Assembly: GCA_963971305.1 (NCBI GenBank)
Contig: OZ020309.1
Span: 2,783,001-2,847,000, forward strand
Origin: Arcuatula senhousia
Taxonomy: Eukaryota > Mollusca > Bivalvia > Mytilida > Mytilidae
Reading direction: 5' to 3'
DNA: 64,000 nucleotides
A program made the position numbers and the translations under genes. Under the pieces are notes generated by a model that saw only the letters and a list, made by a program, of their open reading frames with translations, ran no database searches and had not been told where the DNA came from. Positions 28,750 to 55,505 of this stretch are shown here, in pieces. How positions within the stretch are numbered: the first letter of the stretch is position 1; each line of letters opens with the position of its first letter.

Positions 28750-30177
28750 TTAGGAACCAACTATTTTACTTGAAGGGGGGCCTTTGGTTTTTGTTTAGGT
28801 CATATTTCTTTTTTTTGCGCAAACTGCAAAAAAACCTTTTTTCTTTAAGATGTCGTGACAAAATATTATTTCCCTATTCATTCATAGATAATAACATAAA
28901 GAACATGTTGTCCAGTTTTCTTATATTGGATCATTACTCTATTAAAGTACATAAACATTACACACGTGAAGGTTAGCACTGCTGGTGGAGTTTAAATTCC
29001 CCGAGGTTAGCCCGCTCCGGCACCAACACTTTGAGTTGGAGAATACATCAAAGCTTTAAATTATCCGTCTAAATTTCAAAATTGTCTAAACCCTAAGGTT
29101 CTTCCTACCCCAGACATAGGTTGAATATCTTAGTAATAATTTGGTTCCCCAGTTAGGTATTTTTGTTATACTGTTCTATGCTCTTCATATTCATACAGTG
29201 TTTGGCATTTTCAATATTTTTGGTAGAGCGCCTCTGATGAGTCTTGAATAGACGAAACGTGCGTCAGGCGTATCAAAATTTAGTGTCTGGAACTTTGTTG
29301 TCATTTGTATTTCGAACACACGTGAAGGTTAGCACTGCTGGTGGAGTTTAAATTCCCCGAGGTTATCCCGCTCCGGCACCAACACTTTGAGTTGGAGAAT
29401 ACATCAAAGCTTTAAATTATCCGTCTAAATTTCAAAATTGTCTAAACCCTAAGGTTCTTCCTACCCCAGACATAGGTTGAATATCTTAGTAATAATTTGG
29501 TTCCCCAGTTAGGTATTTTTGTTATACTGTTCTATGCTCTTCATATTCATACAGTGTTTGGCATTTTCAATATTTTTGGTAGAGCGCTTCTGATGAGTAT
29601 TGAAAAGACGAAACGCGCGTTAGGCGTATCAAAATTTATTGTCTGGCACTTTGTTGTCATTTGTATTTCGAACACACGTGAAGGTTAGCACTGCTGGTGG
29701 AGTTTAAATTCCCCGAGGTTAGCCCACTCCGGCACCAACACTTTGAGTTGGAGCATACATCAAAGCTTTAAATTATCCGTCTAAATTTCAAAATTGTCTT
29801 AACCCTAAGGTTCTTCCTACCCAAGACATAGGTTGAATATCTTAGTAATAATTTGGTTCCCCAGTTTGGTATTTTTGGTTATACTGTTCTATGCTCTTCA
29901 TATTCATACAGTGTTCGGCATTTTCAATATATTTGGTAGAGCGCCTCTGATGAGTCTTGAATAGACGAAACGCGCGTCAGGCGTAGCAAAATTTATTGTC
30001 TGGAACTTTGTTGTCATTTGTATTCCAATATCAACATTATTTTATATGTCAGAAAATAATTCTTTCTACAGAATATTATTTTTCTTCACCTTTGCTGCCA
30101 AAATATTTTTTCATACAAAATCGGATCAAAAATATTAAAAAAAACTACCCCCTTCAAGTTAAATGATCGGTCCCTTA
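28750..30177. mobile_element. TTA-flanked MITE-like element enclosing a tandem array
   Basis: The left end TTA-GGAACCAACTATTTTACTTG plus a G-run mirrors the right end CCCCCTTCAAGTTAAATG-ATCGGTCCC-TTA. These are the ends of the 18124 MITE family, but 1.4 kb apart. Inside are three 356-bp tandem units. The block just left of the array (about 28876-28966, CCTATTCATTCATAGATAATAAC...) recurs just outside the right end at 30228-30319, so insertion and duplication events are nested. Confidence 0.6.
28961..30025 (+). repeat. Tandem array, 3 x 356 bp
   Basis: Units start at CACACGTGAAGGTTAGCACT (28961, 29317, 29673), a strict 356-bp period with a few substitutions between units. Each unit ends with CTGATGAGTCTTGAATAGACG and CGTCAGGCGT.CAAAATTTA. 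A diverged single unit lies in reverse orientation near 42040-42240. Confidence 0.9.
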
Positions 30178-34889: not shown

Positions 34890-35265
34890 CTTGTCCCAAA
34901 AAAGGTTGTTGTACATATTTTGACCAGAAAACGATATGGGCAGCCATTCGGGCAAAAATTAACAAAAAAATTAGAAACAGACAATAAACTTGAAACAGAC
35001 ACAAAAACACAAAAAACAGACATGAAATTTTATAAACAGACAAAAAAATTCAAAAACAGACATGAAATTTTATTAACAGACGAAAAAATACAAAAACAGA
35101 CGTAAATTTTATAAACAGACAGACGATTATGTAAAACAGACACAAAAATACAAAAACAGACATGAAAGTTTACAAACAGACAGTTGTAAAAAGCCAAGCA
35201 GACGTTTTTAAAAACAGACCTAACAGAGGGCGTGACGATCGGGTGTCGGTAATTAGTGTAACATA
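34890..35265 (+). repeat. Array of spaced AAACAGAC motifs, copy 1
   Basis: About 15 copies of AAACAGAC (or TAACAGAC/AGCAGAC) recur roughly every 12-20 bp with variable AT-rich spacers. The array is bounded by ATGGGCAGCCATTCGGGCAA upstream and by GGGCGTGACGATCGGGTGT downstream. A reverse-complement copy with the same unique flanks lies at 42545-42905, so the unit including its flanks is a mobile or duplicated element. Confidence 0.85.
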
Positions 35266-42544: not shown

Positions 42545-42905
42545 TTTGAAACCTCAGTTCGGGTTCGGGTTTCACAAATTACCAACACCCGATCGTCACG
42601 CCCACTTTTAGGTCTGTTTTTAAAAACGTCTGTTTGGCATTTTACGGTTGTCTGTTTGTAAACTTTTATGTCTGTTTTTGTATTTTTGTGTCTGTTTTAC
42701 ACAATCGTCTGTCTGTTTATAAAATTTATGTCTGTTTTTTATATTTTTTTGTCTGTTTATAAAATTTCATGTCTGTTTTTTGGTATTTTTTGTCTGTTTA
42801 TTTTAAATTGGTGTCTGTTTTTGTGTTTTTGTGTCTGTTTAAAGTTTATCGTCTGTTTTTAAACTTTTTGTTAATTTTTGCCCGAATGGCTGCCCATAAA
42901 ACGAC
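42545..42905 (-). repeat. Array of spaced AAACAGAC motifs, copy 2 (inverted)
   Basis: Reverse complement of the element at 34890-35265. It runs from CACCCGATCGTCACGCCCAC through about 14 GTCTGTTT motifs to TTTTTGCCCGAATGGCTGCCC. The order of spacers is partly conserved between the copies, so both derive from one array, with later changes. Confidence 0.85.
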
Positions 42906-44093: not shown

Positions 44094-44239
44094 GTTTGGT
44101 AAATTGTATTTGTGAATCGATGTTGTAAGTTAACATTAATTGAATGTCTTTACAAAGCAGTCATTGTTGCTTAGAAATATATTCAATCAATCTTCAAGTT
44201 AATGATGATAACTTCAGGGTCAAGGACGTGGTCACATAA

Positions 44240-44484
44240 TGTAGTAATTCCGGAATTCAGGGTTGTTCCGTGATCGGTCCAGTGTTAATCATTCATAAGT
44301 ATTTCCTGTTGGTGAGTACTTCTCCAAGACCCTTTGCAGTTGATTCCAGGTATTCCTTCCAGTCGGACGTCTGAATTCCTGCTCCTGCCTGTGCTGTCAA
44401 TCCATTTCTAGTAGCCATTCAAAGCCAGCTTGGATTTACAGGTATCTTATTGTTATATCTTTGAATATCCTCGCCATTACAACA
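44240..44484 (+). repeat. 5' LTR (245 bp)
   Basis: Starts TGTAGTAATTCC and ends GCCATTACAACA; the outermost 8 bp form an imperfect inverted repeat (TGTAGTAA/TTACAACA). It matches the 3' LTR base for base as far as I can see. No convincing TATA box or AATAAA lies inside. Confidence 0.97.
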
Positions 44485-44485
44485 T

Positions 44486-44501
44486 TGGTGTCAGGTGTGT
44501 G
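44486..44501 (+). other. Primer binding site, tRNA-Leu-like
   Basis: One base after the LTR, TGGTGTCAGGTGTGTG matches 14 of 16 positions of the complement of a typical animal tRNA-Leu (GTCAGGA... type) 3' end including CCA. The tRNA identity comes from remembered tRNA-Leu sequence and is an inference; the position is canonical. Confidence 0.7.
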
Positions 44502-44514
44502 CCCTGGAACCTAC

Positions 44515-44520
44515 GGTAAG
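44515..44520 (+). promoter_or_regulatory. Candidate major splice donor in the leader
   Basis: CTACG|GTAAGG lies 31 nt after the LTR and just downstream of the primer site, the place where retroviruses carry their major 5' splice site. It could join to an acceptor at 51352-51353 to express the TatD ORF. Inference from motif and position only. Confidence 0.45.
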
Positions 44521-44650
44521 GGCCATTGAATATTGGAAAACCGACCAGCCTTTGAAAATCCCGCCAAAATAGTTGTTTATTGTGTCAAGTTTTTTGACAT
44601 TATAATATAACTAAACCAATCTTTATTTTTTTCATAGTTTCAATATTTTT

Positions 44651-44960
44651 GTCAGGATTTCTGATAAAAATACTTGCATTATATTTGGTCCTTTGGTTTG
44701 AATTTTTTTTTTTTTTTTTTTGTCAGGATTTCTGACAGGAATGTTATTTAACTTAAATTACTACTTGTAATTAGTTGTCAGGGTTTCTGACAGAACATAA
44801 TTATAAATTTACTTTGAGTTGTCAGGTTTTCTGACATTCTAATAAAACTGATAAAATAGAATTTATTTTAGTCAACAGTGGCAACAACAACAAAAAATTG
44901 TCAGGATTTCTGATAATATTTGACTCCGCATATACAAATAATTGCGTCAGGTTTTCTGAC
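44651..44960 (+). repeat. Hairpin cluster 1: six copies in the 5' UTR
   Basis: Copies at 44651-44665, 44721-44737, 44776-44792, 44820-44836, 44899-44915 and 44946-44960 share TGTCAG-GNTTT-CTGACA. Stems of 5-9 bp close a 5-nt loop (GATTT, GGTTT or GTTTT). Copies 1 and 5 replace a G-C by a sense-strand G-U and extend the stem with flanking A-U pairs. The intervening sequence is unrelated AT-rich DNA, so only the hairpin is repeated. Confidence 0.9.
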
Positions 44961-45034
44961 TTAAGGTTGTTAAATAGAAATTAAAACTAATTTACAAGTA
45001 TTAATTGGGCGTATTTGACATATATTTACAAGCA

Positions 45035-46588
45035 ATGTCGCATCCTATTGATTTAAATAAGACAACATTTACCCAGTTAAAAACAATTAAAGGCTTAGGT
45101 GAAACTAAAGCCAGAGCTATTATTGAAAAGAGAGAAGAAGTTGGGGAGTTAACAATTGATGATCTTAAAGCTATTCCAGGTATATCTGCTCCATTTATTG
45201 ATAGTCTCTTTTCAGAAAATATTGTTATATTAGGTAGTAAAGGTGCTTCCGGTGAGAAGGATACTGTTCCCAAGCTTCAAAATCTGGTTCAAGACCTCAG
45301 GAGGAAGATTGATGAGATGAGCAGGGAGCGTAGTGAGTATGCCGATAGCTTTGAATTGCGAGTACAGCAATTAAAAGATGAACATGTAAAAAATGCTGAA
45401 ACACTAAGGTTACAGAATAAAACTCAAATGCAAGAGCAACAAGAAAAGTTTGAAGAAGAGTTCAACAAATTTAAAAAATTAAAAGATGGTGAGTTTTGTC
45501 AGTTAAAAGAAACTCTTGAACAAAAAGACAAAGAAATACAAGAAAGTCAGGCTTACGCACATGAACTTAATCAACAAATTATTCAAAGTAGATTAGAATC
45601 GGTCATCAAGGATAGGGAGGCAAAACAAGCACGCACTGCAGTTCTCTCAGATAGAGATGATAAGCAAAAAGAAGCGAAGTCTTCGATTACTACCAAAATG
45701 TCTACCTATGATGGTAAGATGGACTGGCGTCCTTATCATCTACAATTTACTATAATCGCAGATCATTTAAAGTGGTCCACAGAGCAGCGCTTGTTCAAAC
45801 TGATAGAATGTCTAAGGGATAGAGCCCTTGTATTTTACAGTGATTGTCCCAAATCTGTGCAGACAGATTATGAGTTGTTGTGTAAGAAATTTAGTGACAG
45901 ATTCTGTAAGAAAGAGTCTGCTCATATTCTTCGTAGACTTTTGCAGGACACAAAGCAGGAAGTTGATGAAAGTCTGGATGAGTTTGCTGAACGGGTTAGA
46001 AGTATGGCTGTTGATGGGTATCCTGATACTCCAGACAAAGTTGTCGAAACTCTGGCTGTAGATTCTTTTTTGCGTGGGTGTATGGACAAGAGAGCTGCTT
46101 TGGTTGCTATGGATAAGAATCCGGCATGTCTTGATGATGCGGTTCAGTTTGTAAGAGCGGCTGTAGCAAACCAAAGGGTCATCATGGGAGGTAAGAGGTG
46201 CGAGGTCAAACGGGTAACTTTTGAAGCCTCAGATGAGAAGGAACCGATTGAAATGAGTGAGTTAAATGTAAGGAAGATAGAGAAGGATGATGAAAAGAAT
46301 ACTGGTAACAACTTTGAAAAAAGGTTGAGTAGAACTGAAGAAGATTTAGCAGAAACTAAGGTAATGGTGAAAAAGATTTTGGGAATTTTAAATCAGAATC
46401 AAGGTCAAAGATCACGGTTTGGTTCTAGGTCTCCAACACGAAACAGAACATCTAGTCCCTCAGGTTGTTTTAATTGCGGTATTGAAGGACATTTTGCCAG
46501 GGAATGTCCTAACCGAAATAATAGAAGTAGGTCACCTTCTCCCAGTCATTTAAACTCTTCCAAGTCAAGAACGATGGCCAGTTCTTGA
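45035..46588 (+). CDS. Gag polyprotein with N-terminal helix-hairpin-helix
   Basis: Structural protein of the retrotransposon (517 aa from the first ATG at 45035; the open frame extends 10 codons upstream without another ATG). Residues 11-59 resemble the ComEA-type double helix-hairpin-helix: FTQLKTIKGLGETKARAII followed by LKAIPGISAPFIDSLF. Residues about 80-205 are a charged coiled coil (EEFNKFKKLK, LEQKDKEIQE). Residues about 222-385 look like a retrotransposon capsid (WRPYHLQFTI; FAERVRSMA). C478-C481-H486-C491 (CFNCGIEGHFAREC) is a CCHC zinc knuckle in an Arg/Ser-rich tail. Gag should form particles and bind element RNA. The HhH domain is unusual for Gag and may add nucleic-acid binding. 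Stops at TGA 46586-46588; pol is reached by -1 frameshifting. Confidence 0.9.
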   Translation: MSHPIDLNKTTFTQLKTIKGLGETKARAIIEKREEVGELTIDDLKAIPGISAPFIDSLFSENIVILGSKGASGEKDTVPKLQNLVQDLRRKIDEMSRERSEYADSFELRVQQLKDEHVKNAETLRLQNKTQMQEQQEKFEEEFNKFKKLKDGEFCQLKETLEQKDKEIQESQAYAHELNQQIIQSRLESVIKDREAKQARTAVLSDRDDKQKEAKSSITTKMSTYDGKMDWRPYHLQFTIIADHLKWSTEQRLFKLIECLRDRALVFYSDCPKSVQTDYELLCKKFSDRFCKKESAHILRRLLQDTKQEVDESLDEFAERVRSMAVDGYPDTPDKVVETLAVDSFLRGCMDKRAALVAMDKNPACLDDAVQFVRAAVANQRVIMGGKRCEVKRVTFEASDEKEPIEMSELNVRKIEKDDEKNTGNNFEKRLSRTEEDLAETKVMVKKILGILNQNQGQRSRFGSRSPTRNRTSSPSGCFNCGIEGHFARECPNRNNRSRSPSPSHLNSSKSRTMASS

Positions 46589-46610
46589 CTGATTCTCAGC
46601 AAAGTGGCCA
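46549..46610 (+). promoter_or_regulatory. -1 ribosomal frameshift signal (UUUAAAC plus pseudoknot)
   Basis: T-TTA-AAC at 46549-46555 sits exactly in the gag reading phase required for X-XXY-YYZ slippage. After a 7-nt spacer, AGTCAAGAAC (46563-46572) pairs perfectly with GTTCTTGACT (46581-46590), a 10-bp stem whose 3' arm holds the gag stop codon. The 8-nt loop contains TGGCCA (46575-46580), which can pair with TGGCCA at 46605-46610 to complete an H-type pseudoknot with a 14-nt connecting loop. The pol frame is open from 46531 onward, so a -1 shift here gives Gag-Pol. TGGCCA is also self-complementary and could support RNA dimerisation. Confidence 0.88.
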
Positions 46611-49600
46611 ACAACCAGATATAAGTGAAGCCAATATTAGGGAAATAAATTTATATGAGAACAATAGGAAAGGGGCCACCTTTTGTGTTAAGATATTCAT
46701 AGGGGGAATACCTGTTTTAGCTGTCATAGACTGTGCAGCTCAAGCCTCAGTCCTAAATCATGAACTTTTTCGGAAATTAGGTTCAAAAGTAAAACTGTCA
46801 GAAAAAGTTATTTTAAGGGGAATTGAAAAACATTCTAAATTAGTTGCCCATTGTTCGGAAAAAGTTGAAATTCAACTTGGGAAACAAAAGTTCTTATGGA
46901 ATTTCGTAGTAGCAGATATTAAGGACAAAGTAATTTTGGGGTTAGACTTTTTGGAATTTTCAAAAGTGAAAGCTGATTTTGGTAATTACAGCTTAGATGT
47001 AAAAAATGAGACACTCCAAGGGGAGCGGATAGTGAATAAGGATGGGGAGTTCTCTAACATATACCGAATCACAGTTAGTAAGAAAATAGTAGTCCCTCCA
47101 AATAGCATGAAAATGGTTATCATGGACTCTGACAGGCTGCCTCAGTCAGATATCCTAGTACAACCTAAGTGCAATCTCAAAGGTCTTCTTACCCCAAATG
47201 TCCTTATTAAAGAGGGTGGGGTCCTGCAAACAATGGTCCGCAATGGCACCCAAAAATACATAACCTTAAAAGCAGGGTGTTCTTTTGGAGTGGGGACAGA
47301 AATTGACAAAATAGTACCAATTGAAAACAAGTTAGCAACTGACAGGGTTCCTGACAGTGTTGATTTGAGTCGGTTGAACAGTCACTTTCCGACTGACAGG
47401 TTTTCTGACAGTCTTGCCAGGAACACTAGGTCTCCCATAGATGTGGAAAAAGGATCCTGTTCAGAAGCCAGGGTTTCTGGCTACTCAGTAGGTGAGGGTA
47501 AGAATCCAGAAGCTGTTCCAGAAAATGTAACTTTGTTCAGAACAATGGTGGATGATGACTTTCTGCAGGCAAAGTCTACGCAGGTAAAGGAAACTGGTGA
47601 CTCAGAGAAGGGCAATTCCATGGGTAAGAATGGGCATCTTAGTTCAGAATATATCTCTGACAGGGTTCCTGCTGGAGATGGTCATGCCAGGCTTTCTGGC
47701 AAACAAAAATGTAGAAACTCAGGTAATTTCTCAGATTCTGTACCAGAGATGCCTACTCATCTCCAGAACCTATTTGAGCGGACAGTGCGTGGAATGAACG
47801 AGTCTCAGGCTAAGAAAGTTGCAGAATTATTACTGGATTTCCAGGGTGTGTTTGCTACAGGTGATCTGGATCTGGGGTTGTTCAATGGGGAGATAAGACA
47901 CCAAATAGACACCGGGGATGCAAAACCTGTTAGGAATAGGTTACGTAGAACACCCTTGAAATTTGAAACGGAAGAGCAAGATCATTTGCAACAAATGCTT
48001 GAAAAAGGGGTTATCCAGCCATCAATTTCAGATTGGGCAGCTTGTCCTGTTCTTGTTCGAAAAAGAGACGGGTCATTAAGGTATTGTCTCGATTATCGTG
48101 GTCTTAATAATGTCACCACCAAAGATGCTTTCCCATTACCAAAGATTGAGTCTTGTTTAGATACCCTCAAGGGAAGTATGTACATGAGTAATGTGGACAT
48201 GGCTGCAGGATATTGGCAGTTAGAAATTGATCCCAAAGATCGCCATAAAACAGCCTTCATAACAAAATATGGTCTATATGAACATGTCAGGTTACCATTT
48301 GGGTTATGCAATTCTCCTGCAACATTTAGTAGGGTCATGCAATTAGTTCTTCAAGGGCTCAATTGGGAAGAATGTTTGGCCTACCTAGATGACGTTATCA
48401 TCCTGGGAAAAGACTTTGACGATCATGTCCAAAAACTAAGGCATGTGTTAGAGAGATTTCAGAGATACAACTTGAAATTGAAACCCTCAAAATGTAATTT
48501 ATTTCAGACGGAAGTCAAGTTTTTGGGCAAGGTTGTTAACCAGAATGGGATCTCAGTTGATATGAAGAATATTGAGACTGTTCTAAATTGGCCCATTCCC
48601 AAATGTAAAAAGGAACTGGAGTCCTTCCTTGGTCTGGCTAATTATCACAGGGAACATGTTCATCACTTCTCAAGTCTTGTCGAGCCACTGCATCATTTAA
48701 CAGGCAAAAATGTTGAGTTTCTTTGGAATGAAAGACATCAAAAGGCTTTCGAACAAGTTAAGATTGCTCTCACTTCTCCTCCTGTTTTGGCATATCCAGA
48801 CCCAGATTGTCCTTTCATTTTAGACACAGATGCCTCAGATACCTGCTTGGGAGCACAATTGAGCCAAGTACAGAATGGTAAGGAGGTAGTCATAAGTTTT
48901 GCTAGTAGAGTCCTTTCTCCAGCCCAAAGAAAGTATTGTACCACAAGGAAAGAGTTACTGGCCATTGTCGCATTCACCAGGCAATACCGTCATTATTTGT
49001 TGGGAGGAGAGTTTATTGTAAGAACGGATCATAACAGCTTGCGTTGGTTGCTCAACTTTAAAAACATTGAGGGCCAACTGGCTAGGTGGATAGAGGAGCT
49101 CTCACAATATAATATGGTGATACAACATCGAGCAGGAAATAAACATGCTAATGCAGATGCACTGTCACGGAAACCTGTAACAGAGACATCATGTAATTGT
49201 TATGAAAGGTCAGTAGCACTAGAACATCTTCCATGCGGTGGATGTAAATATTGTCAAAAAGTAAGTGCTCAATGGAAGTCTTTCCAGGAAGATGTTGACT
49301 ATATTGTTCCTCTAGCAATCCGTTCATTGAGTATCTCTGACGACAGGGTTAGTGTCATGGGTATGCCAGCTTCTTACTCAAATAAGGAACTGTGTACTCT
49401 GCAAAGGCAAGACAAGGAAATTGGTCAAGTTATTTCTTGGTTAGCTTGGGGATATGAACCTCAAAAGCAGGAGCTTCAGATGAGTAGTTCTACGGTTAGG
49501 CAGTTGTGGAATTGTAGGTCTCAATTAGTCTTTGATCATGATGTCTTATTCTATCAGTGGGAAGATGAGATAAAACCAAGGAATTTGCTTGTTGTTCCAG

Positions 49601-51264
49601 AGTCATTAAGGCCAGAAGTGCTCAGGTTTTGTCATGACATAAGGTCAAGTGGTCACTTAGGGCAAGATAAGACTCTCTTGAAGCTCAGGAAAACTGTTTT
49701 TTGGCCTGGTATGTCCCAGGACTGTAAACTGTATGTGGCGTCTTGTCATGTTTGCAATAAACAGAAGAAGTCTTGTAAGAAGCCAAAGGCATCATTAGGT
49801 CAGTATCATTCTGGTATTCCATTTGAGAGAATTCATTTAGATATCCTAGGTCCTCTTCCAACTTCAAAACAAGGTAACAAATATGTTCTGGTGGTAATAG
49901 ACCAATTTACTAAATGGATCGAGTGTTCTCCATTACCAAATCAACATGCAGAGACGGTGGCCAGTGCATTAATGGACTCCACCATCTCCAGATTTGGGTG
50001 TCCATTGGAGATTCACACTGACCAAGGAAAGAATGTAGATGGTAGTGTTATGAGACAACTTTGCCAGCTCCTGGAAATTAATAAAACACGAACAACAGCT
50101 TACCATCCAGCTTCCAATGGACAGGTAGAGCGCTATAATCGGCTTCTTACTCAGATGATTCGTTGTTTTATTAAGCGGTGCCAAGACAAATGGGATGTGC
50201 ATCTTCAACAACTTACGGGAGCGATCAGGGCTTCTGAAAACAGACAGACAGGTTTTACTCCGAATTTTATGCTGCTAGGTAGAGAAAATCTTCAGCCGAT
50301 TGATTTGTTACTGGGGACCTTTAATAAACCAGATCTGGCAATGGAAGATACTAGGTGTGCTGAATATGTTAGTGAGTTAAGGCAGGTTCTAGACTATGCA
50401 CATAAACTGGCAAGAGAACATCTTCAGGCAGCTCAGTTCAGACAGAAACGAGACTATGACTTAAATCTTAACCAGCAGTCATATCACACTGGAGAAGTTG
50501 TGCTTAAGTTGGATTCCGCAAGGAAGGTAGGCATATGTCCAAAACTTAAACCTCCTTGGAAAGGACCCTATGTTGTAGTCGAGGTTAAGTCTCCAGCATT
50601 GTACAAGATAAGGAACAAGAAAATTACTGAGGTTGTTCATCATGATCGTCTGAAGCGCTATCGTGACCGTGACATGCCTAAGTGGGTACTTAAGATGCAG
50701 GCTTCCGTCACAGAAGGCAGTACAGGAGATCAGAATGCTGGCTTGGATGAAACTTTGGACCAGTCAGGTTCTCTGGCTGTGTCAGATTCAATTTTTGGTG
50801 CACACAGTACTGCGTTACAGTCAGGCTCCCTGGCTGTTCAAGATGTAATTTCAGGTTTTTCTGATCCAGTAGATATCCATAATGTCCAGCAAGGTTCTCT
50901 TGCTAGATCAGATCTGGTCCCAGATTCAGATAGTCTAATAGAAAACGGTCCTGTCCAGCAAGGTTGCATAAAGGGTTCTAAAGTAAATTCCACAAAAACT
51001 CAGTCAGACAGGCTGACTGAGTCTCTCATCAGTAAAACCAACTTGCAGTCAGGTTTCCTGACTGACCTCAGTCCAGCAGAGTCAAGGACACCAGAATTTA
51101 CTGTGAAAGAATGGGTAGATCTCCTGGATATGGAAGGTGATGAAACCATACTTTATAACATTAATGATGATTCAGATATCATTTCAGGTGATGCCAGATC
51201 AGACAGTGGTGCAAGGGGAAGGAACCGCAGAATGCCGGCCTACCTTCAAGATTATTTTTTGTAG
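46555..51264 (+). CDS. Pol polyprotein: PR-RT-RNase H-IN (via -1 frameshift)
   Basis: Replication enzymes, about 1569 aa from the slip site. The aspartic protease has D59-C-A-A in place of the usual D-S/T-G-A, with ILG at 127-129. A low-complexity linker (about 255-400) carries hairpin-encoded motifs. RT at about 480-660 has PFGLCNSPATF and YLDD (610-613). RNase H follows with LDTDAS (757-759) and TDHNSLRW. Integrase has H1027/H1034/C1064/C1067 and D1096/D1156/E1192 (D,D-35-E). A GPY/F module follows (WKGPYVV near 1335). A tail of about 195 aa has QSGSLA-like repeats and ends in YLQDYFL. The frame is uninterrupted. The only initiator-like codon near its start is a TTG that overlaps the gag stop, which supports frameshift expression. 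Confidence 0.95.
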   Translation, partial: LFQVKNDGQFLTDSQQSGQQPDISEANIREINLYENNRKGATFCVKIFIGGIPVLAVIDCAAQASVLNHELFRKLGSKVKLSEKVILRGIEKHSKLVAHCSEKVEIQLGKQKFLWNFVVADIKDKVILGLDFLEFSKVKADFGNYSLDVKNETLQGERIVNKDGEFSNIYRITVSKKIVVPPNSMKMVIMDSDRLPQSDILVQPKCNLKGLLTPNVLIKEGGVLQTMVRNGTQKYITLKAGCSFGVGTEIDKIVPIENKLATDRVPDSVDLSRLNSHFPTDRFSDSLARNTRSPIDVEKGSCSEARVSGYSVGEGKNPEAVPENVTLFRTMVDDDFLQAKSTQVKETGDSEKGNSMGKNGHLSSEYISDRVPAGDGHARLSGKQKCRNSGNFSDSVPEMPTHLQNLFERTVRGMNESQAKKVAELLLDFQGVFATGDLDLGLFNGEIRHQIDTGDAKPVRNRLRRTPLKFETEEQDHLQQMLEKGVIQPSISDWAACPVLVRKRDGSLRYCLDYRGLNNVTTKDAFPLPKIESCLDTLKGSMYMSNVDMAAGYWQLEIDPKDRHKTAFITKYGLYEHVRLPFGLCNSPATFSRVMQLVLQGLNWEECLAYLDDVIILGKDFDDHVQKLRHVLERFQRYNLKLKPSKCNLFQTEVKFLGKVVNQNGISVDMKNIETVLNWPIPKCKKELESFLGLANYHREHVHHFSSLVEPLHHLTGKNVEFLWNERHQKAFEQVKIALTSPPVLAYPDPDCPFILDTDASDTCLGAQLSQVQNGKEVVISFASRVLSPAQRKYCTTRKELLAIVAFTRQYRHYLLGGEFIVRTDHNSLRWLLNFKNIEGQLARWIEELSQYNMVIQHRAGNKHANADALSRKPVTETSCNCYERSVALEHLPCGGCKYCQKVSAQWKSFQEDVDYIVPLAIRSLSISDDRVSVMGMPASYSNKELCTLQRQDKEIGQVISWLAWGYEPQKQELQMSSSTVRQLWNCRSQLVFDHDVLFYQWEDEIKPRNLLVVPESLRPEVLRFCHDIRSSGHLGQDKTLLKLRKTVFWPGMSQDCKLYVASCHVCNKQKKSCKKPKASLGQYHSGIPFERIHLDILGPLPTSKQGNKYVLVVIDQFTKWIECSPLPNQHAETVASALMDSTISRFGCPLEIHTDQGKNVDGSVMRQLCQLLEINKTRTTAYHPASNGQVERYNRLLTQMIRCFIKRCQDKWDVHLQQLTGAIRASENRQTGFTPNFMLLGRENLQPIDLLLGTFNKPDLAMEDTRCAEYVSELRQVLDYAHKLAREHLQAAQFRQKRDYDLNLNQQSYHTGEVVLKLDSARKVGICPKLKPPWKGPYVVVEVKSPALYKIRNKKITEVVHHDRLKRYRDRDMPKWVLKMQASVTEGSTGDQNAGLDETLDQSGSLAVSDSIFGAHSTALQSGSLAVQDVISGFSDPVDIHNVQQGSLARSDLVPDSDSLIENGPVQQGCIKGSKVNSTKTQSDRLTESLISKTNLQSGFLTDLSPAESRTPEFTVKEWVDLLDMEGDETILYNINDDSDIISGDARSDSGARGRNRRMPAYLQDYFL
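47129..47701 (+). repeat. Hairpin cluster 2: protease-RT linker of pol
   Basis: Hairpins at 47338-47358 (ACTG-A-CAGG GTT CCTG-A-CAGT), 47391-47413, 47463-47485 (AGCCAG GGTTT CTGGCT), 47654-47678 and 47685-47701 (TGCCAG GCTTT CTGGCA), with a diverged one at 47129-47149. Arms change together (GAC to GCC with GTC to GGC), and several share a central A-A mismatch. They encode DRVPDS, DRFSDS, ARVSG and ARLSG-like peptides in the non-conserved linker. Confidence 0.85.
50761..51064 (+). repeat. Hairpin cluster 3: pol C-terminal tail
   Basis: Hairpins at 50761-50779, 50817-50837, 50851-50864 (weak), 50888-50904 (AGCAAG GTTCT CTTGCT), 50998-51022 (perfect 10-bp stem) and 51046-51064 (CAGTCAGG TTT CCTGACTG, 8 bp). 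The arm sequence of 50888 differs entirely from the others while the GTTCT loop and stem length are kept. They are read in a different codon phase from cluster 2 (QSGSLA-type peptides). Confidence 0.85.
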
Positions 51265-51336
51265 AGAGAAGTCAGAGAGAAACCAACCTGTATATCATGT
51301 AAATATGTTCCTTAATTTTTTCTAATCAGTATTTTA

Positions 51337-51353
51337 TTTATTTCTATTTCAAG
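51337..51353 (+). promoter_or_regulatory. Candidate splice acceptor before the TatD ORF
   Basis: A pyrimidine-rich tract TTTATTTATTTCTATTTCAAG ending in AG at 51352-51353, with CTAAT about 30 nt upstream as a possible branch site, lies 4 nt before the TatD ATG. With the leader donor at 44516 it would give an env-like spliced mRNA. Inference only. Confidence 0.45.
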
Positions 51354-51357
51354 AGCC

Positions 51358-52836
51358 ATGGATGATGAAACTGCCTTAGTGCTGGACTATGATGAGGAAG
51401 AAGACACAGGAGCCAAGGTGGTCAAAGGCCAAAGCACAAACAGAAGGAAGTCCAGGGATTGTTCAATCTGCAAGGGAAGGTTTAATAATGTCAGACGACA
51501 CACGTTGACAGATCATCTTCCCTGGTATGTGGCACCAGTTACCTCCTGCTGGTCGTGTAAGTTGCAGTTTGGGCAGACAGGGGCTACCAAAAGGCACTTT
51601 TTGAACCACCACAATGGAGATTCGCATACCCATGCCTATAACAGTACTTCTTTGCATCAATGGGTTGAGTTGATGGGAGGTCTACTCTTGGAGGTATGCA
51701 AGTATCTAGACATTAGGTTGTTAGAGGATCTTGTCAAGTTTTGTGTTAATGACACCAGAATGCAGGTGTGTTTAAATGCTACGTTCCAGGAAACTGATAT
51801 TCCGTTCCTGTGTCATTTCAACTCCATCAACCATTTAGCTGTTCCTGATATATCAACTTTGGCTTTTCCCCCATTTCAACTTTATTCATTACTACATTGG
51901 AAGGTTCTAGCCACACTCATCTATATCAGTGAAAACCAAGAAAATTTACAGTCTTTTGAAAAACGCATTCCACTCTACAGTATAACATGTCTTACCTACC
52001 ATGCTGTCATCGATTCTCATTTTCATTTTGACAAAATGATGTTGCAAGACAGGATTTCTGACTTGCCTTCATATCAGTGGCAATACTCCGCTCATAAAAA
52101 CAAACATTTTCAACTTACAGTATTAATTGCCAATTTTGTATTTCCTAGCAGGTGGGATTCTTGTTTGAAACCATTGCTCTCAAGAAATGAAGCAAACAAT
52201 AAGATTAAAGTGTCCATTGGACTACATCCAAGATCTCTAGATAATGAGTCCAGGTCCAGTATTCCAGCATATCTGGCCGAAATGGAGAAGATTATGACAG
52301 ATTTCAAGGGTAAGATTTTAGCTATAGGGGAATGTGGGCTGGATGTACATGGTTCTCAAGCATTGACTGACAAACAACTTTGGGCTTTTGAGCTTCAACT
52401 TAAATTAGCAAAGCAGTACACTCTACCGGTTATTATCCATTGCAGAGGAGAATCCGCTGTATTTGACAAGTGCCTGGATGTTATGTCTACAGTACTCAAT
52501 CAGGGGCATAAAGTACATTGGCATTGTTTTAGTGGCGAAATTGAACAATATTTTAAAATTAAAGGGGTTTTCCCCAAAACGAAATTTGGAATTTCCCCTC
52601 ATATTTTGTCAGAATCCAAGTTTCCCGAAGAAGTCAGGTCAAAGCTATATGAGATCGGAGTACAGGATTTATTGGTAGAAAGTGACGCACCATACATTCG
52701 GCCAGGAGGCTTTGAGGAGTTTACTCCTATCCTCATCAAAGATGTAGTGGGGGAAATGGCAGAACTTTTTGGTATTTCGCCGATGGAAGTTGCCAAGGTC
52801 ACTTCCGAGAATGCCAGGCAGTTATATGAACTGTAG
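51358..52836 (+). CDS. Zinc-finger TatD nuclease ORF (ORF3 of the retrotransposon)
   Basis: 492 aa, starting at an ATG with G at -3 and G at +4, 93 nt after pol stops. Residues 1-20 are acidic. C35/C38/H48/H53 form a C2H2-like finger with short spacing, and C64/C67/H80/H84 form a classical C-x2-C-x12-H-x3-H finger. Residues about 215-492 are a TatD-family metal-dependent hydrolase: DSHFHFD (H221, H223), SIGLHP, GECGLD (E325), IIHCRGE (H361), HWHCFSG (H389) and ESDAPY (D443), so all expected metal ligands are present. TatD proteins are Mg-dependent DNA/RNA nucleases; human TATDN2 has been linked to R-loop RNA. It lies inside the LTRs and contains one of the element's hairpins (52044-52066), so it belongs to the element rather than to a host gene. 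Its role in the element is unknown. Confidence 0.92.
   Translation: MDDETALVLDYDEEEDTGAKVVKGQSTNRRKSRDCSICKGRFNNVRRHTLTDHLPWYVAPVTSCWSCKLQFGQTGATKRHFLNHHNGDSHTHAYNSTSLHQWVELMGGLLLEVCKYLDIRLLEDLVKFCVNDTRMQVCLNATFQETDIPFLCHFNSINHLAVPDISTLAFPPFQLYSLLHWKVLATLIYISENQENLQSFEKRIPLYSITCLTYHAVIDSHFHFDKMMLQDRISDLPSYQWQYSAHKNKHFQLTVLIANFVFPSRWDSCLKPLLSRNEANNKIKVSIGLHPRSLDNESRSSIPAYLAEMEKIMTDFKGKILAIGECGLDVHGSQALTDKQLWAFELQLKLAKQYTLPVIIHCRGESAVFDKCLDVMSTVLNQGHKVHWHCFSGEIEQYFKIKGVFPKTKFGISPHILSESKFPEEVRSKLYEIGVQDLLVESDAPYIRPGGFEEFTPILIKDVVGEMAELFGISPMEVAKVTSENARQLYEL
52044..52066 (+). repeat. Hairpin inside the TatD ORF
   Basis: GCAAG-A-CAG GATTT CTG-A-CTTGC: 5 bp, an A-A mismatch, 3 bp and the GATTT loop seen in the 5' UTR copies. 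It encodes QDRISDL just after the first metal-ligand motif, in a spot where the family has no conserved residues that I recognise. Confidence 0.85.
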
Positions 52837-53029
52837 TCAGGTTGTCTGACTATAAGTATTCTTTGTAAATAGACATGTAAATTCGTTGAGATTCTGATCA
52901 TTTTTTTTGGTTAAGCCAGGATGTCTGGCTTATAGTTGTTCGTTTATTTTGTTAAGTCAGGATGTCTGATTTATTAACATAATTAACTTTTTCATTTCTT
53001 TTGTTAAGTCAGGATGTCTGATTTGACAA
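52834..53029 (+). repeat. Hairpin cluster 4: TatD stop codon and 3' UTR
   Basis: 52834-52852 (TAGTCAG GTTGT CTGACTA, 7 bp, including the TatD stop codon), 52912-52932 (TAAGCCAG GATGT CTGGCTTA, 8 bp), 52953-52973 (8 bp with a G-U pair) and 53001-53029 (12 bp with two G-U pairs). Loops are GTTGT or GATGT. The GCC/GGC against GTC/GAC arms covary. Confidence 0.9.
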
Positions 53030-53389
53030 ATTTTGAGTGTGAGCTGTTAAGGAGTGGTGGTTTTCCTTCGCATTATTATGACTACCTAGAGTAAACTGGA
53101 CTGATCTTCCTTGGATGTACATTCTATTATGTATCAAAGTGTGCAGAGGAGTCAGCTCTAATATGCAGTCAAGGATCTACCTCTATTTGTAAATTTTATG
53201 TTCTCATAATCGTTTGGATGGATTTATGTTTTACCCATGTTATATGTTTTATGTGAGGATTATAAACTGTCATTGTTGTGAAATATATATGTGACTGTTC
53301 AAGTGTATGTGACATTGTACTGCTGTGTCCGAAACGTAGAATTCAACTTCATCAATAATCTTATCATATAACTTGGATATCTTTTCAGT
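53030..53389 (+). other. Retrotransposon 3' UTR
   Basis: Non-coding DNA between the last hairpin and the polypurine tract; no further repeat or frame was seen. Confidence 0.6.
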
Positions 53390-53402
53390 AAAGGGGGAAG
53401 AA
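53390..53402 (+). other. Polypurine tract
   Basis: AAAGGGGGAAGAA directly abuts the 3' LTR, the usual primer for plus-strand DNA synthesis. Confidence 0.9.
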
Positions 53403-53647
53403 TGTAGTAATTCCGGAATTCAGGGTTGTTCCGTGATCGGTCCAGTGTTAATCATTCATAAGTATTTCCTGTTGGTGAGTACTTCTCCAAGACCCTTTGC
53501 AGTTGATTCCAGGTATTCCTTCCAGTCGGACGTCTGAATTCCTGCTCCTGCCTGTGCTGTCAATCCATTTCTAGTAGCCATTCAAAGCCAGCTTGGATTT
53601 ACAGGTATCTTATTGTTATATCTTTGAATATCCTCGCCATTACAACA
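53403..53647 (+). repeat. 3' LTR (245 bp)
   Basis: Same 245 bp as 44240-44484, with no difference seen by eye. It is followed by the ATAA target duplication; an AATAAA hexamer arises only across the LTR-flank junction. Confidence 0.97.
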
Positions 53648-53907
53648 ATAAACCAAAAATTGTTAGGCATGTGCGTTATTTGTATTTCTACACCAATCAA
53701 ACAGGTAACGTTTATTTTAACTACTAGTATCTAAAAGAAATCCTGAATTTCCCACATACCTCAAGATAAATTTTCCCTTTAATATCTATTTTTTGCTCTG
53801 TGTAAAATAATTTGCGGTGAAAGGATATTAATTTTACTATGAAAATTAAATTTAATTTTGTAAACATCTAGAGATCGTTTTATGCTTATGTTAATAAAAA
53901 AGGTTAA

Positions 53908-54109: not shown

Positions 54110-54330
54110 CTACAGTGTCAGGGGATTGCTTGATTTGGGTTTTGTTTTGTTTTCCTTTACCAGATTTGACGCACTGAATTGACTGTTGGTAATGCGACGG
54201 GTATGCTATAGCAAGCAGGAACTGCTTACTCTTCCGGAGCATATGCGTTCACTCTTGTAACGACTTAAGTTCGTGTTGTTGATTGATATTCAGTTATTTT
54301 TGTGTTTCCATGTGTCCATGTTGAATGAAA
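54110..54330 (+). repeat. Interspersed family A, + copy (5' and middle part)
   Basis: TTTCCTTTACCAGATTTGAC, TGCTATAGCAAGCAGGAACTGC, TTACTCTTCCGGAGCA and GTTCGTGTTGTTGATTG. Confidence 0.75.
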
Positions 54331-55304: not shown

Positions 55305-55505
55305 CAGAGGTACCAATGGGGTAACCGAATGTCAAAAGTCTGAAAGGGCAGAGACAAAACCAGTAAACACCAACAAGAACGGGACAAAAACAGACAACAT
55401 GTAAAACATGGAAACACAAATCAACTGAATATCAATCAATAACGCGAACTCCAGTCGAAACATGAGTGAAATCAGGTGCTCCAGAAGAGTAAGCAGTTCC
55501 TTAAA
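55305..55505 (-). repeat. Interspersed family A, minus copy
   Basis: GAAGCAGAGGTACCAATGGGG, CTGAAAGGGCAGAGACAAAACC and AGGTGCTCCAGAAGAGTAAGC. Confidence 0.8.

Follow-up and report, generated by a model that had tools for sequence, protein, structure and literature searches.

Long terminal repeat (LTR) retrotransposons with an enzyme gene behind pol have been described in bdelloid rotifers, where the third open reading frame (ORF3) of Juno and Vesta elements encodes a DEDDy exonuclease or a GDSL esterase (PMC5408684). Human TATDN2 is reported to be a Mg2+-dependent, structure-specific RNA exo/endonuclease (PMC10707325, PMC12709183). Here we analysed a 64-kb stretch of the genome of the bivalve Arcuatula senhousia (contig OZ020309.1, positions 2,783,001 to 2,847,000 of the forward strand; hereafter the window, whose own numbering is used below). 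It contains at 44240-53647, on the plus strand, one complete young Ty3/gypsy-type element whose third gene, ORF3 (51358..52836), encodes a zinc-finger TatD protein of 492 amino acids. We consider it likely that this element belongs to a Ty3/gypsy clade in which such a nuclease is a standing third gene.

The element is bounded by 247-nt direct repeats that are 100% identical and 9163 bp apart, from which LTRs of 245 bp each were delimited (TGTAG...ACAACA, of the TG...CA type; 44240..44484 and 53403..53647). The 4-bp target-site duplication ATAA (44236..44239 and 53648-53651) was read directly and then also found by a script. A probable primer-binding site, TGGTGTCAG (44486..44494), which we take to be tRNA-Leu-like, follows the 5' LTR, and the polypurine tract AAAGGGGGAAGAA (53390..53402) adjoins the 3' LTR. 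The TGGTGTCAG letters also follow the LTR in the sister families B and C, and not in D and E. The LTRs, the duplication, the primer site, the polypurine tract and the order of the pol domains identify a Ty3/gypsy LTR retrotransposon, and the window copy is young because its LTRs are identical. The first-pass annotation of this DNA had proposed an intact and recent gypsy-type insertion, and the identical LTRs, the ATAA duplication, gag and the pol domains bear this out.

The same annotation had placed between pol and the 3' LTR a 492-residue frame with two C2H2-like fingers and a full TatD metal-binding set; the exact coordinates, Pfam and a structural model all agree with it. ORF3 starts with an ATG and has no internal stops. 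Pfam TatD_DNase (PF01026) matched residues 218-490 (52009..52827) with an E-value of 2.6e-41 and 142.1 bits (cut-off 27), and all the TatD metal ligands are present (H221, H223, E325, H361, H389 and D443). An AlphaFold model built on 13 sequences (mean pLDDT 75) retrieved TatD enzymes first from the PDB, with E-values of 3.8e-15 for 6l25, 3.5e-13 for human TATDN3 and 1.7e-12 for TATDN1. The two fingers (51460..51612, residues 35-85) have the ligands C35-C38-H48-H53 and C64-C67-H80-H85; no Pfam model scored above its cut-off on these fingers or on the helical region, both N-terminal of the TatD domain. A basic stretch precedes the first finger in most families. A chance ORF was considered and rejected.

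We searched the window's own genome with ORF3 and obtained at least 95 matches, 60 of them full-length (query start at or before 40, end at or after 474), and 55 of these 60 were without a stop. Merging 88 of the 95 match rows gave at least 84 distinct loci; the seven rows omitted were short N-terminal pieces of loci already counted, and the counts are lower bounds as 87 of 261 candidates were scored. A search with pol gave 61 rows, or 46 loci without second segments (window's own included), these being the best 46 of 3,823 first-look candidates. ORF3 was present downstream in 46 of these 46 best-scored loci, on the same strand and 0.5-2.6 kb past the matched pol segment. It was located by coordinate match in 44 and by fetching the sequence in the last two: in L043, which is 98% like L038, ORF3 is present, and in L044 it is present in pieces of different frames. 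When P0122, a pol of another source, was used as the query, all 29 scored loci fell within the 46. In the other direction, pol was found upstream of ORF3 in all 23 loci fetched with 10 kb. The idea that other copies might lack ORF3, which the first-pass annotation had raised as a way for its proposal to fail, is contradicted by both sets.

An LTR pair was present in 17 of the 20 loci fetched first (97.0-100% identical, seven at 100%), and a permissive script found a target duplication of 4-6 bp in 11 of these 17. The divergent loci L036, L037 and L038 have gag, pol and ORF3 in order. The window family has at least one further copy, the decayed L042 (94.6% identity over 2.7 kb, with stops in ORF3). 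In two loci, L025 and L034, LTRs and ORF3 are kept and pol is largely gone, only remnants being found; they are possible partner-dependent derivatives.

Of 23 ORF3s, 22 keep the metal ligands, the exception being L031 (D443G), and 21 have the full set of eight finger ligands; the other two are L026, with H48Q, and L031, whose stretch begins after the first two. Many of these 23 rows are near-identical copies, and eight families are represented among them. The count omits L022, in which the N-terminal part is out of frame; its metal ligands are kept. Fingers and metal ligands are retained down to ∼27% identity. In family B (seven copies), ORF3 carries 20 synonymous and 19 non-synonymous unique changes, giving a ratio of non-synonymous to synonymous rates (dN/dS) of 0.24 (binomial p 1.8e-5); without the frameshifted L021, the changes are 14 and 13 and the ratio is again 0.24 (p 2.9e-4). 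For family B pol (six of the seven copies, without L020) the changes are 27 and 30 (dN/dS 0.30, p 1.3e-5), and the pooled pair counts of this family are 0.248 (ORF3) and 0.264 (pol). In family B, ORF3 is under purifying selection like pol. Pooled pair counts for ORF3 of the other families were 0.71 (C), 1.37 (D) and 0.47 (E); the D value, the sole one above 1 and not significant, was computed with the damaged L031 among the copies, from pooled differences of which 8 are synonymous and 42 non-synonymous. Between families, synonymous differences are 0.70-0.86 (saturated or nearly so) and non-synonymous ones 0.31-0.47.

The ORF3 and pol trees both give ((L017,L022),window) and ((L036,L037),L038); the positions of L023, L028 and L032 are weakly supported, and the bootstrap of the ORF3 tree was not fully settled. 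ORF3 was likely acquired before the sampled families split and inherited together with pol, a judgement that we make jointly for the explanation as a whole. Capture of host exons by retroelements is well known, and the youth of the window copy, with its identical LTRs, would suit a host gene riding passively in a few recent insertions. Such capture is scarcely credible against at least 84 loci, at least nine divergent families, pol-congruent trees, intact metal sites and the selection in family B, and we rejected it on these grounds. A host exon spanned by accident, the other failure that had been foreseen for the proposal, is excluded by the number of loci and the agreement of the two trees.

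Outside this genome, a protein database gave 17 relatives of ORF3 at E 1e-10 or better, with clusters of up to 17 members, and proteins of Mytilus trossulus, M. coruscus and M. edulis were among them. The closest named proteins are those of Mytilus (36-46% identity), and the finger-helix-TatD architecture is also found in more distant environmental proteins. In the ORF3 tree, Mytilus P0003 pairs with L032 (99/97) and P0001 and P0006 stand beside the window ORF3 (81/82); the Mytilus ORF3s are nested inside the diversity of this genome's ORF3s, and the ORF3 group excludes eight bacterial TatD rows with support of 99/99. Scans of viral contigs with ORF3, the ORF3 alignment, pol and the pol alignment gave nothing useful, one of them yielding two TatD loci at 26-28%. 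A scan of genome contigs gave four bacterial TatD loci, and 24 phage records had TatD matches, all below 60% identity. Among the 2001 pol relatives found, the 120 that were listed all lack a fused TatD domain. Two of the more distant environmental relatives, P0012 and P0013, on two contigs of ∼21 kb, have lost most metal ligands and are perhaps non-catalytic or host-adopted versions. One related pol, P0070, has an attached macro domain (PF01661), possibly another accessory enzyme.

The other genes of the window element follow the usual order. The gag gene (45035..46588; first ATG at 45035, open from 45005) encodes an N-terminal helix-hairpin-helix and a C-terminal CCHC knuckle. The former, at 45035-45190, is ComEA-like (Pfam HHH_3, E 1.5e-9) and to our knowledge unusual for a Gag; the pol relative P0117 also has an HHH domain listed. 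The pol gene (46531..51264, open from 46531) encodes protease, reverse transcriptase (RT), RNase H and integrase in this order. Its frame is −1 relative to gag and lies behind a frameshift signal (46549..46590) made of a slippery heptamer, TTTAAAC at 46549-46555 read in the gag frame, and a 10-bp hairpin (46563-46590). Gag-Pol would probably be made from full-length RNA through a −1 frameshift.

Just 5' of the ORF3 ATG is a candidate 3' splice site of mediocre score, TTCTAATCAG...TTTCTATTTCAAG (51314..51353). In the window copy, L017, L023, L028, L032 and L038, an acceptor-like AG precedes the likely ORF3 ATG by 0-7 nt. The pyrimidine-rich acceptor tract is present in most representatives and poor in L028, where an in-frame ATG also occurs upstream. 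For L036 and L037, the reading frame becomes open immediately ahead of the AG, and no in-frame ATG occurs up to where the conserved protein begins. Because of these AGs, and of the two loci without an ATG after the AG, a spliced message is favoured over re-initiation, and the sequence suggests that ORF3 is probably translated from a spliced subgenomic mRNA in the manner of env. This bears on whether ORF3 takes the part of env and functions in spread between cells. The env position named in the first-pass annotation holds as to place and probable splicing, but we observed no transmembrane segment. Over 19-residue stretches, hydropathy means peak at 0.9-1.7 in eight representatives, and the 1.9 of L028 falls in an unlikely N-terminal extension. 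The protein is moreover an intracellular-type hydrolase with zinc fingers, and a role as env is very improbable. A membrane-anchored env was rejected on the hydropathy.

How the nuclease might serve the element can be proposed by analogy with human TATDN2, after which ORF3 would be a metal-dependent, structure-selective 3'-5' exo/endonuclease. Its fingers and helical region may guide it onto structured RNA or an RNA-DNA hybrid of the element's own life cycle, where clearing or trimming of nucleic acid could aid replication or escape from host silencing. In this broad form, with the element's own RNA or hybrids as the substrate of the nuclease, the role is plausible and we hold it tentatively. 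Counter-defence, in which ORF3 would degrade host precursors of small RNAs, R-loops or cytosolic cDNA through which the element is silenced or sensed and leave the element's own nucleic acid untouched, is possible but rather unlikely. The basic stretch before the first finger would suit nuclear entry, and R-loops are reported to be resolved by TATDN2-type enzymes (PMC10707325). The rotifer authors raise links of nuclease ORF3s to silencing or PIWI-interacting RNA factors (PMC5408684). ORF3 also diverges faster than pol (43% versus 68% identity between the window element and family B), as an arms race would give; however, no dN/dS ratio is significantly above 1.

Several results weigh against a TatD-bearing clade with a spliced, TATDN2-like ORF3. 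The scored pol loci cover the near relatives of this pol, and remoter gypsy elements may lack ORF3. An LTR pair was not found in the fetched span (10 kb) of L022, L026, L027 and L036-L038. The selection on ORF3 that the first-pass annotation had suggested stands for family B, but the C, D and E sets are not distinguishable from neutral (dN/dS 0.81, 0.78 and 0.47; few changes or copies, none significant). By sequence, the solved structures nearest to ORF3 are bacterial YcfH types. On the side of splicing, the window acceptor ranked 84 of 736 AGs with a crude matrix, no splice donor common to all the family leaders was found, and none scored above threshold in family C.

The window element also carries many copies of a short hairpin of the GTCAGG-NTN-TCTGAC family. 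Exact matches to the core CAGGNTNTCTG number 15 in the 64 kb, where 0.21 would be expected, and every one is a sense-strand match within the element. A looser motif search found 21 against 1.77 expected; these too all lie in the element, two being on the minus strand. We aligned 21 sense-strand copies, 19 from the looser search and two from a pairing scan. Seven are in the 5' leader (44577..44967), five in the variable protease-RT linker (47334..47707; peptides DRVPD, DRFSD, ARVSG, DRVPA and ARLSG), four in the variable pol tail (50756..51069; QSGSLA-like peptides), one within ORF3 (52045..52065) and four at the ORF3 end and in the 3' untranslated part (52829..53029); the leader array and the last four came from motif and pairing scans. 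In this alignment, 88.6% of cells pair, compared to 73.0% after shuffling, and 7 of 10 pairs vary on both sides. Covariation is 0.473 versus 0.207 shuffled and at most 0.18 slid; the inner stem is part of the motif that picked most rows, and the outer pairs, where covariation is strongest, lie outside it. G.U pairs outnumber A.C in the core by 23:1 (one nearly constant pair contributes 17 of the 23) and by 32:4 with the outer pairs included (one of the 21 rows mis-centred), an excess that fits folding of the sense-strand RNA. Conservation of the residues that the nine pol hairpins encode is among the lowest in pol (0.02 versus 0.42).

The hairpin within ORF3 (9 bp, loop of 3) is retained more widely. 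In a codon alignment of nine families, 7.1 of its 9 positions pair on average, more than in any other of the 1085 windows (mean 3.43, sd 0.75; z 4.9); the runner-up, at 5.89, is in highly conserved codons. The encoded peptides vary (QDRISD, QDSFAG, KTSTTA, QTRISG, MVGSSD, RVGDPD, QDRFSG, SAGSSG and SAGYPG), 83.3% of cells are paired versus 72.1% shuffled, and 6 of 8 pairs vary on both sides. Covariation is 0.448 versus 0.249 shuffled and at most 0.299 slid, the structure being favoured over its slid versions as it was drawn from the same rows. In L023, L036, L037 and L038, 6 of 9 positions pair, with mismatches within the stem in L023. The hairpin was kept in three of five further loci: L046 (7/9), L049 (8/9), a decayed relative of the window family, and L045 (6/9). 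Other windows as good numbered 5 of 279 in L046 and 17 of 279 in L045, though the L045 fold is stable.

These observations raise the possibility that ORF3 and the hairpins form a pair, the nuclease recognising its own hairpins for autoregulation or to discriminate own from foreign RNA. The confinement of the exact core, within the 64 kb, to the window element, the G.U excess suited to a sense-RNA fold, and pairing kept through nine families despite peptide change all agree with such recognition. Against it, the ORF3 hairpin is itself missing in L047 and L048 (2/9 pair; one family by peptide), a result that also counts against the wider explanation. In families E, F, H and K, all of which keep ORF3, a single copy of each was scanned and showed no scattered motif. 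In family B, full complementarity of the stems makes the motif equally common on the two strands (10 and 12). Conservation of the hairpin would be accounted for just as well by packaging or splicing signals, and we regard recognition of this kind as doubtful. Under a loose rule, sense and antisense counts of scattered hairpins were 19/3 in the window element, 10/12 in L015, 6/3 in L022, 5/1 in L023, 4/0 in L026, 2/2 in L027 and 4/4 in L031; outside the window element, 54 kb gave 0 sense and 1 antisense. None was found by this rule in L032, L036, L037 and L038, and because these have ORF3, there is no strict link between scattered hairpins and nuclease. In a count of perfect 6-bp stems, the window element alone showed an excess (z 3.9); z was at most 1.6 in the other elements and 2.2 in one background stretch.

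Among the sites within the element, the ORF3 hairpin would be the likeliest for binding or cutting by the nuclease, a suggestion to which we give a low probability. We put forward, as improbable, that nuclease and covarying hairpin are one module, a zinc-finger nuclease with its own RNA recognition site. It would be old within the clade, multiplied through leader, linker and tail in one branch (the window family, B, L022, C and D), and might serve self-recognition or self-limitation. Peptides repeated at least three times occurred in 22 of 122 proteins (120 pol relatives plus the window gag and pol) versus 2 of 122 shuffled, 4 of the 22 by other long N-terminal repeats. In P0021, P0024, P0025, P0030 and P0096, element-specific short peptides are repeated in the pol N-terminal part, linker or tail. 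Such repeats of some pol relatives could encode other hairpin families; back-translation of repeated peptides to hairpins gave a weak shift (mean stem 6.3 versus 5.7), on windows that are not independent, and was not relied on.

Other repeats occur elsewhere in the window. At 28960-30024 there are three 356-bp tandem copies with a type I hammerhead ribozyme (Rfam match 29941-29984, plus strand), and we take them to resemble retrozyme-like satellites. Arrays of ∼20-bp units, AAACAGACA... at 34962-35214 and its reverse complement TGTCTGTTT... at 42649-42871, are inverted and ∼7.5 kb apart, possibly the ends of a large DNA element. Just outside the retrotransposon, a 107-nt inverted repeat with 77% complementarity is present at 54217-54323 and 55395-55501.

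Extra genes in retroelements are known, but a catalytic nuclease kept through the diversification of a clade, with pol-like selection in the one testable family, suggests a part of the replication strategy. The question is then which step in the life cycle of an LTR element needs, or gains from, a private TatD nuclease. These ORF3s provide a naturally varied collection of nucleases, together with a candidate RNA site. For annotation, some mussel genes called TatD may be transposon genes.

In the literature searched, which left aside subscription papers and Repbase, no retroelement with a TatD ORF was described. The part available of a survey of mollusc LTR elements does not mention a third ORF of the TatD kind (PMC6238403). 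A search for scattered hairpins in retrotransposons gave unrelated work only. Bacterial REP hairpins and RAYT transposases likewise combine repeated short hairpins with an encoded nucleic-acid enzyme, whereas the present case concerns a retroelement, RNA hairpins and an unrelated enzyme whose link to the hairpins is only putative. The env-bearing gypsy-type errantiviruses share gag, pol and a third ORF probably expressed from a spliced mRNA, but the third ORF here encodes a nuclease and not a membrane protein. With TATDN2 and the TatD/YcfH family (PDB 6l25, 2y1h and 8efg), ORF3 shares the TatD fold and a complete metal site; it differs by the two zinc fingers and helical region in front and by its place in a retroelement. 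The first-pass annotation had credited gypsy elements with Gag-Pol as a rule and an Env-like protein at times, and knew of no described family with TatD. The literature searched showed no such family either, but enzymatic ORF3s of LTR elements were already on record in the rotifer report (PMC5408684). Juno and Vesta resemble the present element in being LTR elements with an enzymatic ORF3 after pol, of a 3'-5' nuclease type in some and without a transmembrane part; Vesta2 and Vesta5 have a Cys-His motif, and rotifer ORF3s typically come from spliced messages. The rotifer nuclease has a DEDDy fold, in contrast to TatD here, and rotifer ORF3 is absent from the earliest branches, whereas here it is old and stands beside pol in every scored locus. 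Finally, the rotifer ORF3s did not depart significantly from neutrality in the authors' tests, whereas ORF3 of family B is under purifying selection.
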